Below are positions 13,995-23,464 of a stretch of DNA of 40,275 nucleotides, one piece after another; the first letter of the stretch is position 1; each line of letters starts with the position of its first letter. The notes under the pieces are model-generated. The model saw only the letters and a list, made by a program, of their open reading frames with translations. It searched no databases and had not been told where the DNA came from. A program made the translations under genes and the position numbers. Origin of the DNA: Bacillota bacterium (lineage in GTDB: Bacteria; Bacillota; UBA4882; UBA10575); assembly GCA_012838955.1 (NCBI GenBank), contig DUOH01000010.1, positions 1-40,275 of the forward strand. Reading direction: 5' to 3'.

Positions 13995-14038
13995 AAAGAT
14001 ATTGAAGATGTTTATGTTGACAATTGAATATGTATATA

Positions 14039-14118
14039 TTGCGGGGGGACTCATTTGAGTTGAGAAGGTAGAACCTGACCCTTTGAACCTGTCAGTTAAT
14101 ACTGTCGTAGGGAAGCAA
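14039..14118 (+). promoter_or_regulatory. TPP riboswitch, first copy
   Basis: The THI element is complete. Outer stem TTGC/GCAA, ACTC-ATTT-GAGT hairpin, TGAGA box, ACCCTTTGAACCTG core, CAGT/ACTG hairpin and CGTAGGGAAGC end are all present. A strong terminator follows at 14151-14183, so TPP binding should stop transcription. Confidence 0.95.
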
Positions 14119-14150
14119 TGCATGTAATAAGAATCAAGAATGATGAATAT

Positions 14151-14183: not shown

Positions 14184-14206
14184 ATAAAAAACTGAATAAG
14201 TTTGTA

Positions 14207-14286
14207 TTGCGGGGGGACTCATTCGAGTTGAGAAGGTAGAACCTGACCCTTTGAACCTGTCAGTTAACACTGTCGTAGGGAAGCAA
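14207..14286 (+). promoter_or_regulatory. TPP riboswitch, second copy
   Basis: This 80-base element matches the first copy except for two substitutions: ATTT to ATTC in one loop and TAAT to TAAC in another. Both lie in hairpin loops, so all pairings are kept. The offset is 168 bases. It is followed by a hairpin GCTTGCCT (14304-14311) with AGGCAGGC (14316-14323) and only four T residues, a weaker terminator than that of copy one. Confidence 0.95.
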
Positions 14287-14422
14287 AACCTGATAAAAGT
14301 GATGCTTGCCTATTCAGGCAGGCGCTTTTCGCATTACCGCCCGCCTTTGAGAGGGAGCGACTGGAGGACGGCGCCGTTATAGCAATAAGGGTATGCTAGT
14401 ACCAACGAAAGGAAGGACCGAA

Positions 14423-19991: not shown

Positions 19992-21159
19992 ATGGGTTCT
20001 ATTTTACTAGTTATTATTTATATTGCCTTTATCAGTCTAGGATTGCCGGATGCCCTCTTGGGTTCAGCCTGGCCATCTATGTATGGAGAATTTCAAGTGC
20101 CTATCTCATATACGGGGATTGTCACGATGATTATTGCCGGCGGGACTATCATCTCCAGCTTTTGCAGTTACAAGGTGATTCACCGGTTTGGAACGGGTAT
20201 GGTTACCTTGGTGAGTGTGGCTATGACCGCTATTGCGCTGTTTGGGTTTTCGTACTCCACTTCCTTCCGGTTATTATGCATTTGAAGCATACCCTATGGT
20301 TTGGGGGCCGGAAGTGTGGATGCGGCGTTAAATAATTTTGTCGCTTTGCATTACAAGGCGAAACATATGAGCTGGCTGCATTGCTTCTGGGGGATTGGGG
20401 TAACGGCCGGACCGTACATTATGGGGCTTTGTCTAACCAGTGGCCTGAGGTGGAATTCGGGTTACCAGACAATTGGGGTTATCCAGACCGTATTGGTGCT
20501 CTGCCTACTGATGACTCTGTCGCTCTGGGAAAAGAACCAAAAGGATAAAAGCAGGGCGGAACAGGAAAAGCAGGCTCTCACTTTGAAAGAAATGCTCCGG
20601 CTGCCAGGGGTTAAACAGGCTCTAGTTGGTTTCTTCTGTTATTGCTCGTTGGAGGCGACCACCGGTTTATGGGCCAGCAGCTATATGGTTTTGCAGAAGG
20701 GTATTGACGCCCGGACCGCGGCCAAGTGGGCGGCCATCTTCTATTTAGGGATAACCGCAGGCAGATTTATTAGTGGTTTCATTACCGGAAAAGTTGGCGA
20801 CAAAAATATGGTCCGGCTGGGACAAGCTTTAGCCGGATTGGCTGATTATCATGTTTTCATCGGGAAACATAAGTGCTTTTCTTGGATTAATTCTGATTGG
20901 GGTTGGCTGTGCACCGATCTTTCCCAGTCTGTTACATGAGACCCCGGAAAACTTTGGTGAGGATAAATCACAAGCAATTATGGGTATGCAAATGGCATCA
21001 GCTTATATTGGTACCACCTTTATGCCTTTGCTCTTTGGTTTTGTTGCCGAAAAGATTGGGATCTGGAGTTATCCCTTGTTTTTAATGCTCTTTGTTGTTG
21101 TAATGTTGATCATGGTTGAAAAATTAAACCGGATCCAGACCGAGAAAGGCAGAAGATAG
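19992..21159 (+). pseudogene. broken MFS transporter (one nonsense codon, one frameshift)
   Basis: Read together, the three pieces make one ~385-residue major-facilitator protein of the FucP/YfkF-like kind: GLPDALLGSAWPSMYGEFQV at the start, GLGAGSVDAALNNFVALHY in the middle, and MGMQMASAYIGTTFMPLLFG near the end. The frame is first broken by TGA at 20283-20285 (LLCI-stop-SIPYGLGAG), where most relatives would carry a small or Cys residue. It is broken again by a one-base shift near 20835-20850, after GQALAGLA. The start has AAGGAGG upstream. The gene may have transported a sugar or precursor; its place after the thi operon is suggestive only. It is probably inactive unless these are sequencing errors. 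Confidence 0.85.
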
Positions 21160-21635: not shown

Positions 21636-22394
21636 ATGGAAAAATATCTTACCGCCTATGAACTGGCGGAGCTTTTGCATTTATCGGTGGAGACCATCTG
21701 GCGGTACACACGGGAGAACAAGATTCCAGTAATAAAGCTGGGAGAAAAACAGTACCGCTACAAAAAAGAAGAAGTGTTGGCGGCCCTGACGGCCAGTGGT
21801 GATCTTGTCCGGGAAGAACAGGCAATCTATGCCAAACAAGATGAATACACCTATGATGATTACATAAAACTCCCGGAAGAGCCTGGTTATCGCTATGAAG
21901 TCCTCAATGGGTTCTTGGTCAAAGAACCCTCGCCTTTGCTTCAACACCAACGGGTATCCCGGGAACTAGGATATCAATTGAAAACATTCTTTGACGGATT
22001 TGACCCTAAGGGAGAAATCTTCTATTCTCCCATAGATGTTACTCTGGGTGATCACAATGTGGTTCAGCCTGATATTTTATTTGTCTCCAGCAACCGGAGA
22101 GAGATCATGCGGAAAGAACGCATTGACGGCCCCTGCGATTTGGTGGTGGAGATACTGTCGCCGTCGAGCCGCCGGAAGGATCGCTTGAAGAAGATGGAGA
22201 TTTACCGGAAAGCAGGTATCCCTCATTACTGGATCGCTGACCCGGACGAGAAGATTTTGGAAGCTTATCAGCTTCAGGGGGAGAACTACCTCCTGGTCTT
22301 TACGGGCGGGCCGGAAGATGAGTTTGCACACCCGGAGTTTCCAGGGTTAAAGCTTGATCTGGAGAAAATCTTTTATAACCTTGATCTAGATTGA
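21636..22394 (+). CDS. HTH (excisionase-type) and Uma2-family nuclease-fold fusion
   Basis: Residues 1-55 are a MerR/excisionase-type helix-turn-helix (YLTAYELAELLHLSVETIWR, then 'KIPVIKLGEKQYRYKKEEV'). Residues ~70-250 are a Uma2 (DUF820) domain, a PD-(D/E)xK nuclease fold: EVLNGFLVKEPSP, VQPDILFVSSNR with D146, LVVEILSPSSRRKDR with E172, and YRKAGIPHYWIADPDEK. All three usual catalytic-type residues can be seen. Most Uma2 proteins lack a DNA-binding domain; the fusion would bring the nuclease to a set sequence. The biological role of Uma2 proteins is not settled. It has its own promoter and no partner gene. Confidence 0.85.
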   Translation: MEKYLTAYELAELLHLSVETIWRYTRENKIPVIKLGEKQYRYKKEEVLAALTASGDLVREEQAIYAKQDEYTYDDYIKLPEEPGYRYEVLNGFLVKEPSPLLQHQRVSRELGYQLKTFFDGFDPKGEIFYSPIDVTLGDHNVVQPDILFVSSNRREIMRKERIDGPCDLVVEILSPSSRRKDRLKKMEIYRKAGIPHYWIADPDEKILEAYQLQGENYLLVFTGGPEDEFAHPEFPGLKLDLEKIFYNLDLD

Positions 22395-22486: not shown

Positions 22487-22515
22487 TTGACGAACACGGC
22501 TTCCTTGAATATAAT
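22487..22515 (+). promoter_or_regulatory. strong promoter of the small-membrane-protein operon
   Basis: TTGACG at 22487-22492 and TATAAT at 22510-22515 with exactly 17 bases between. Transcription would start near 22522, about 206 bases before the first gene. Confidence 0.75.
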
Positions 22516-22521
22516 TTATGC

Positions 22522-22727
22522 TGATCCGAATGAATCGGATTACTAACGCAGAAGTGTTCAAGTTTTTGTCCTATGCGCAGTATTTTGCGTTGAAGGTATG
22601 CTATTGGAGGCATACGGTTTTTCAGAAGAAGAACCGCATGCCTTTTTTGCATACCTGGGCGTAACGGCATCATTGATGCGATACCGCGTATATTATTATT
22701 ACTATTTATTACAAGGAGGTAGTACTT
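22522..22727 (+). ncRNA. structured 5' leader with internal terminator, unclassified
   Basis: The leader begins with a hairpin, ATCCGA/TCGGAT (22524-22540). A helix AACGCA (22545-22550) with TGCGTT (22586-22591) encloses about 35 bases. A terminator follows: GGCAT-CGGTT (22609-22619) pairs with AACCG-ATGCC (22632-22642), then T6. The coding region begins about 80 bases later. This is the layout of a transcription-attenuating riboswitch, but it matches no class I can recall. Confidence 0.55.
22609..22648 (+). terminator. attenuator-type terminator inside the leader
   Basis: Two stem blocks, GGCAT/ATGCC and CGGTT/AACCG, around an 11-12 base loop, followed by T6. It precedes, not follows, a gene. 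Confidence 0.75.
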
Positions 22728-23138
22728 ATGGCATGTTTTCTAGTCCCTGTTGCGGAGGCCGCGGTCACAACGGCGATCACTAAGGCAGTAAAATTGAAGG
22801 AACATCGATCGGTAGACCTGAAGGCCGACACCGGCAACAACAACTCCGGGAAAGAGGGCAAAATTCCCTTCTCCGGTAAACTGAAATGGCTCACCAATAT
22901 GCTCTGGGGCGGATCGGTCCTGCTGGCCTTTGAGCATGTGTGGTACGGCGAGGTAGTGCCGTGGTTCCCATTTCTGACCGCAGCCTCTGACCCTGCCGCG
23001 GCTTCAGAAATGCTCGCGGAGATGGCGACTGTCGGCGTGTCCATGGCTGTGCTCGTGACCGCCGTTTGGGGTGTTATGCTGCTTGTGACGAACGCTATGG
23101 AAAAAAAGGCTCTGAAAGCGCAACCGGTTTCGGGTTAA
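22728..23138 (+). CDS. small conserved-looking membrane protein, unknown function
   Basis: The 136-residue protein has an N-terminal hydrophobic stretch (MACFLVPVAEAAVTTAITKA), a polar Asn/Lys-rich linker (residues ~25-48), then two membrane helices: LWGGSVLLAFEHVWYGEVVP and a second around VSMAVLVTAVWGVMLLVTNA. A His and acidic residue lie inside the first helix (FEHVW). I cannot name a family. GGAGGT precedes the start by nine bases. The next gene, 12 bases downstream, is another small membrane protein, so the two probably form a complex. Both lie behind an attenuator-type leader. Confidence 0.75.
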   Translation: MACFLVPVAEAAVTTAITKAVKLKEHRSVDLKADTGNNNSGKEGKIPFSGKLKWLTNMLWGGSVLLAFEHVWYGEVVPWFPFLTAASDPAAASEMLAEMATVGVSMAVLVTAVWGVMLLVTNAMEKKALKAQPVSG

Positions 23139-23150
23139 GGAGGGCTGGAC

Positions 23151-23464
23151 ATGATTTTACTGACAACAGTTTTTGCGGCGATTATCTGTACGGTTATTTG
23201 GTATAAAAACGCGCCCAAGGCTGAAATGAAGGTCGGCCTTCTCTGCTGGATGTATTGGGGCGCTACGCTGATGTGCTGGTGGATGCGATCTTTGGCTACG
23301 CTGAGCTGCAGGCAGAGTATTTCACACCCACACCCATTGAGATGCTCAATGATTTCTATTTGGGGCTTTCCGTTGTTGCGCTGGGGCTGATTATCTGGTT
23401 GGTGATTCTGCTCACCAAAGACCCCAAAGGCGTGATCAAGGCGGCATTACTCAAGCAAAAGTAA
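23151..23464 (+). pseudogene. second small membrane protein, frameshifted
   Basis: The first frame gives MILLTTVFAAIICTVIWYKN and continues to MYWGATLM near 23274. The sensible sequence then continues in another frame as LVDAIFGYAELQAEYFTPTP, with a second helix, LGLSVVALGLIIWLVILLTK, and a basic end. Joined, it would be a protein of about 104 residues with two membrane helices. One missing base near 23272-23282 explains the break. GGAGGG precedes the start. It is paired with the gene just upstream; if the shift is real, that partner is now alone. Confidence 0.65.

Follow-up and report, generated by a model that had tools for sequence, protein, structure and literature searches.

The region at positions 22487 to 22727 of the window (the whole stretch of 40,275 nucleotides that was analysed) raises two questions: what kind of regulatory RNA lies in front of a small membrane protein gene, and which genes are controlled by RNAs of this kind. 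The original prediction described the region as an attenuator leader with the layout of a riboswitch, containing a promoter, a 5' hairpin, a closed domain and an intrinsic terminator, and located before two small membrane protein genes.

Promoter and leader layout

The plus strand of the window shows a sigma-70 promoter, TTGACG-17-TATAAT (22487-22515), which matches the consensus in 11 of 12 bases, as originally predicted, and whose hexamers and spacing are identical in the two closest relatives. Between this promoter and a 136-codon open reading frame starting at 22728 there is a leader of 205 bases, and the reading frame is preceded by a ribosome-binding site, AAGGAGG (22713-22719, plus strand), which is kept in relatives. 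Predicted folding is far more stable than that of shuffled sequences both for the fragment 22522-22730 (z = -6.0) and for the fragment 22522-22656 (z = -6.75). Only one copy of the leader was found in the genome of the window. A promoter with at least 9 of the 12 consensus bases is located just 5' of 36 of the 46 leaders collected overall, versus 12% of shuffles, and in the promoter scan of these 46 leaders the leader begins a median of 9 nucleotides after the -10 box. Since the promoter sits just upstream at this median distance, the first hairpin, P1, is taken as the 5' end of the transcript.

Conserved structures of the leader

The structural comparison was based on an alignment of 22 leaders of gene 1 homologues, gene 1 being the reading frame at 22728, and later on 46 leaders overall, many of which come from metagenome-assembled genomes. 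P1 (22522-22542, plus strand), which corresponds to the predicted 5' hairpin, shows an ATGAA loop, and its seven pairs all change on both sides among the 22 leaders. The loop is closed by an A-T pair in the window and by C-G or T-G in most relatives; it is exactly ANGAA in 26 of the 46 leaders, and 39 of the 46 have a loop with GA(A)(G) at its end. P2 (22545-22558, plus strand) is the hairpin AACGC-AGAA-GTGTT, in which 5/5 pairs change on both sides. Its loop is exactly NGAA in at least 24 of 46 leaders, a lower bound because automatic loop picking assigns P2 wrongly in several leaders, including that of the window. The closed domain that had been proposed between AACGCA (22545-22550) and TGCGTT (22586-22591) is not kept: all 21 other leaders of the alignment have at least one mismatch in it, and AACGC pairs instead with GTGTT in the covarying local hairpin P2. 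The domain can form in the window, and when this sequence is folded on its own the antiterminated state prefers it.

The part overlooked in the original prediction is P3 (22596-22615, plus strand), an antiterminator hairpin with the sequence GTATGC(T)-ATTGGA-(G)GCATAC, in which 94% of the cells are paired and five of six pairs change on both sides. P3 loops are often ANGAA-like, such as ATGAA, AGGAA and ACGAA. A P3 stem of at least 5 bp is present in 36/46 leaders versus 18.4 expected from shuffled linkers, a lenient control in which only the linker is shuffled, and in 16 of the 24 leaders outside the first alignment (7.4 expected). The covariance models did not include P3 as a paired element, and they carry some sequence preference in that arm. 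By simple search, roughly 10 of the 46 leaders have a weak P3 arm or none, which counts against reading the leader as an attenuator.

The intrinsic terminator (22609-22648, plus strand) had been predicted correctly; it has a stem-loop at 22609-22642 followed by six T at 22643-22648, and 14 of its 15 pairs change on both sides. The 5' arm of the terminator is the 3' arm of P3, and the two structures are mutually exclusive. In the window, the predicted energy is -43.6 kcal/mol for the terminated state versus -38.2 kcal/mol with P3 forced, a difference of about 5 kcal/mol. The upper terminator stem, P4 (22615-22636, plus strand), coexists with P3 when the antiterminated state is folded; its apical loop is AGAA in the window, and the terminator apical loop is NGAA in 35/46 leaders. 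The length of the P2-P3 linker is very variable among leaders, and the conserved positions are confined to stems and GAA-type loops, with no extended single-stranded core. On this anatomy, the leader may be read as a duplicated pair of hairpins, P1-P2 and P3-P4.

Among the 22 aligned leaders, 17 of the 18 pairs of the antiterminated form (P1, P2 and P3) show changes on both sides; 86.5% of the cells are paired, and the covariation score is 0.531, whereas shuffles reach 0.291 and slid versions no more than 0.146. The terminated form (P1, P2 and terminator) shows such changes in 26 of 27 pairs. The original prediction had named a lack of conserved structure in homologue leaders as the finding that would speak against it; the alignment gave strong covariation and a second conformer, and the prediction withstood this check. 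Judged from these alignments, the leader is a conserved RNA with two predicted mutually exclusive structures before a coding region.

The nested palindromes around 22596-22656, and one copy that also scores weakly on the minus strand, could belong to an ordinary terminator between transcription units or to a palindromic mobile element, neither of them acting as a switch. However, the leader is present in a single copy in the genome, has a conserved promoter directly upstream and a gene downstream, contains three covarying hairpins (P1, P2 and P3) and recurs with the same gene set. The P3 covariation and the recurring targets refute this explanation, to which we attach hardly any probability. 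A terminator/antiterminator pair would also suit attenuation by ribosomes that translate a leader peptide, or a leader that senses tRNA, and chance short open reading frames occur in many leaders. Those with a ribosome-binding site vary in place and sequence, however, and 13 of the 46 leaders have none; moreover, P1 at the 5' end of the transcript leaves no room for a peptide ahead of it, and Rfam gives no T-box match. The leader peptide was rejected because no short open reading frame is conserved among the 46 leaders, and peptide- or tRNA-sensing control of this kind appears extremely improbable.

Search for known RNA classes

No Rfam 15 family matches the leader at curated scores, either in the window or in 15 leader loci, and elsewhere in these sequences only TPP and tRNA models were found. 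The model of the NiCo riboswitch gives no match on the leader at its gathering score or at E values up to 10. The earlier statement that no riboswitch class is recognisable thus stands at curated and at permissive Rfam thresholds. Among the open papers searched, on the nickel-pincer nucleotide (NPN), on DUF3842 and from riboswitch and attenuator surveys, no mention of the motif was found. The motif is undescribed in Rfam 15 and in this open literature, and an earlier mention elsewhere is possible. The window also contains, on its plus strand, a tandem pair of TPP riboswitches assigned by Rfam (14033-14131 and 14201-14299).

Genes located downstream of the leader

NPN, a nickel cofactor discovered recently, serves lactate racemase and related racemases. 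The first covariance model was built from membrane-protein leaders only. In carrier genomes, this model found the leader before NifH-like and nitrogenase-component-like genes with a FecB/FecCD/FecE-type transporter behind them; at L163:2355-8792, which contains the leader and the NifH-like operon, the NifH-like protein is near CfbC and NifH and scores under both cut-offs. It also found the leader before a methyltransferase gene with a nickel-type ABC permease, before a FecB-FecCD-FecE transporter, before a methyltransferase gene with FecCD and FecB and, weakly, before larE-larB. When 398 genomes of the phylum were scanned with the first model, one new match was obtained, before a DUF3842 gene. 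The second model was run on 392 genomes of the order of G425 (the scan around G433 covers nearly the same genomes) and gave 16 new matches, 15 of them before genes of the same set. In this order scan, the leader precedes the membrane pair accompanied by larE, larB or larC; larE-larB with no other gene in between; a gene for a nickel-type solute-binding protein; two methyltransferase genes with larC behind them; or an ECF S-component gene. The order-scan match L147 (E = 9e-4) has no related gene and was taken as a false positive.

Two operons from the order scan contain, under the leader and in this order, genes encoding a NikA-like protein, two ATPases and two permeases, then larE, larB and larC. 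The LarE, LarB and LarC proteins of that operon are above the NCBIfam cut-offs, and its transporter proteins resemble the NikA/NikB and oligopeptide families alike. Since both families score below the NCBIfam cut-offs, the label of nickel transporter draws on the operon context in addition to similarity. Overall, the 46 leaders precede the membrane pair in 29 cases, larE/larB directly in six, ECF S-components in three, FecBCD-type operons in three, nickel-type ABC operons in two, methyltransferase operons in two and a DUF3842 gene in one. The kinds of genes found under the leader, which occurs in many bacteria of the gut and of anaerobic habitats, point to a regulon of nickel uptake and nickel-cofactor (NPN) synthesis. 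Against a nickel regulon, the targets are not all known nickel genes, as is the case for the ECF S-component, the NifH-like operon and DUF3842.

At L159:9776-10899, the ECF S-component under the leader is followed by a kinase-like gene similar to phosphoribulokinase and uridine kinases, an arrangement as expected for nucleoside salvage. DUF3842 (PF12953) is a small protein with an N-terminal GGG motif. Its gene lies beside or under the leader at L055, L056, L059, L065, L076, L157, L158 and L165, and after the leader at L164; it occurs in none of the clustered leaderless gene 1 loci. DUF3842 is a candidate member or regulator of the pathway.

Membrane protein genes of the window

Gene 1 (22728-23138, plus strand) encodes a membrane protein of 136 amino acids belonging to a family that begins with MACF, and no Pfam model matched it. 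An alignment of 59 sequences of this family shows that C3, E10, E69, H70 and E75 are invariant and H73 is nearly so; by this conservation pattern, Cys3, Glu69, His70, His73 and Glu75 could be metal ligands. The scan of species genomes for gene 1 gave 80 loci, mainly in Clostridia. About 25 of the 80 show the same leader layout before gene 1, and most homologues have no leader. The leaderless homologues often adjoin larB, larC, larE or a CO dehydrogenase gene, all of them nickel systems; larB and larC at these loci were assigned by similarity to proteins tested against NCBIfam. Gene 1 homologues were not found in viral contigs, and three were found in plasmids, one of them adjoining a CO dehydrogenase gene. 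In the Ruminococcus albus plasmid pRUMAL02, the membrane pair adjoins a CO dehydrogenase gene. Searches by fold and by sequence with gene 1, gene 2 and DUF3842 gave no usable match, and the confidence of the models was moderate or low.

Two genomes of the same family as that of the window have a gene 1 with 81% and 77% identity and leaders about 80% identical to that of the window, and in both the operon goes on with an intact gene 2 and larE, then larB and larC. In the window, gene 2 (23151-23464, plus strand), encoding a small membrane protein, has a one-base frameshift near 23275 and consists of two overlapping open reading frames in different frames; it is intact in all relatives compared. 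Of the two small membrane proteins originally predicted, the first is thus intact and the second is split. The operon of the window has no larE downstream, and LarC was not found in its genome, which is 98% complete. The copy of the window may be in decay; alternatively, the frameshift could stem from the assembly. Upstream, at 19992-21159, a transporter-like gene (MFS-like by eye) is spread over three open reading frames in different frames, and the contig may contain several frameshifts, real or from assembly. Just upstream of the promoter, at 21636-22394, there is a gene encoding a Uma2-family protein fused to an excisionase-like helix-turn-helix domain.

Distribution of LarC and ANTAR proteins among carrier genomes

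LarC (PF01969) is present in 37/42 genomes carrying the leader and in 14/38 non-carriers of the same order (p = 2e-6), a comparison with a possible bias from carriers picked through gene 1. For the carriers that come from the order scan alone, LarC is present in 13 of 15 versus the same 14 of 38 non-carriers (p = 0.0018).

ANTAR proteins (PF03861) were considered as readers of the leader. In ANTAR targets, one hairpin lies upstream and another, whose loop is similar, overlaps the terminator (PMC3369931, PMC8934654), a layout which the leader shares, and matches to ANTAR proteins are present in 27 of the 42 carriers. This presence does not, however, differ significantly from that in non-carriers (20/38, p = 0.36), and 15 of the 42 carriers gave no ANTAR match, among them G000, G006 and G009, whose genomes are 95-98% complete, and G412, which contains three leaders. 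In known ANTAR targets the loops are six nucleotides long, the first being A and the fourth G (PMC3369931), a rule that none of the 46 P1 loops and none of the 46 P2 loops follows. For P3, in the window and its closest relatives, a hexaloop ATTGRA that has A1 and G4 can be drawn; for P1 and P2 this is not possible. As P1 and P2 depart from the loop rule and the protein was not found in several nearly complete carriers, membership in this class is largely refuted, and a dual hexaloop of the known kind read by an ANTAR protein is very unlikely.

Proposed mechanism

We propose, with about even confidence, that the leader is a transcription attenuator of a nickel/NPN regulon read by an RNA-binding protein. 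The comparisons place the start of transcription just before P1 and show P1 and P2 forming together with either P3 or the terminator. The terminator would be the default state, since it is the more stable one by predicted energy. P1 (ANGAA) with P2 (NGAA), and then P3 (ANGAA-like) with P4 (NGAA), would represent two copies of one recognition module, and a factor bound to P1-P2 would also capture P3-P4, stabilising P3 and blocking termination. The factor would most likely be an RNA-binding protein active when nickel or NPN is short, and such a shortage would lead to read-through and switch on uptake and cofactor synthesis. We infer this direction of the response from the kinds of genes and the predicted energies. 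The attenuator reading is favoured by the fact that models built from membrane-protein leaders independently recover leaders before other genes, and also by the covariation of both conformers and by the frequency of LarC among carriers. An RNA-binding protein is preferred over direct ligand binding, given that conservation is limited to small loops and that the spacing between P2 and P3 differs greatly from leader to leader.

Direct binding of NPN, an NPN precursor or Ni2+ by the leader itself, with P3 and the terminator as the expression platform, is a possibility of some weight, to which we give distinctly less than even confidence. Such a riboswitch would suit the cofactor-type gene set, namely larBCE for synthesis, nickel-type ABC transporters for supply and a possible cofactor or nucleoside uptake by the ECF S-component with a nucleoside-kinase-like gene, the second gene of L159 resembling phosphoribulokinase and uridine kinases. 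It would also suit a leader that has no dedicated regulator gene constantly beside it, that occurs with its target in distant lineages and that lies before an ECF S-component in the carriers G537 and G752, in which LarC was not found. Nevertheless, the conserved letters are found in small hairpin loops only, with no extended conserved single-stranded core, a widely varying P2-P3 linker is unusual for an aptamer, and the two hairpin modules look like repeated protein sites; a tertiary arrangement of the loops is conceivable. In its more specific form, to which we give nearly the same confidence, the leader would found a riboswitch class for NPN (or its precursor, or nickel in uptake control) made of two tandem GAA-loop hairpin modules, and the membrane pair and the ECF S-component would be transport parts of NPN/nickel metabolism.

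Whether a protein or a ligand reads it, the leader offers either a new RNA-binding antiterminator or a new riboswitch class. RNA-level control of NPN synthesis was not found in the open papers searched. The leader links nickel-type uptake, larBCE and several unannotated genes, which gives a handle on nickel rationing in gut and anaerobic Clostridia, and candidate functions follow for DUF3842, for the ECF S-component and for two unannotated membrane protein families.

Comparison with known systems

The logic proposed for the leader is the same as that of ANTAR antitermination (PMC3369931, PMC8934654). Like the target RNAs of EutV, NasR and AmiR, the leader combines a 5' hairpin with a later one that has a similar loop and that overlaps the terminator and prevents its formation; the linker is variable in both, and one motif stands before several operons of one pathway. 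Unlike them, it has penta- and tetraloops ending in GAA, an additional hairpin (P2), an NGAA terminator loop and a nickel/NPN regulon, and its carrier genomes are often without any ANTAR match. Antiterminators of the BglG/LicT type (RAT), compared through the Rfam scan only, also contain a stabilised hairpin that overlaps a terminator. A RAT is one bulged stem-loop, whereas the leader consists of separate plain hairpins with GAA-type loops. As in the Moco, cobalamin and TPP riboswitches, synthesis and transport genes are found under one terminator-switch leader; in contrast to these, the leader described here has no visible conserved multi-helix aptamer core and no Rfam match. The NiCo riboswitch (Rfam, czcD motif) is likewise a cis-acting leader tied to nickel biology. 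The NiCo RNA forms a four-way junction and activates efflux genes, whereas the present leader shows separate hairpins located before genes for uptake and cofactor synthesis.
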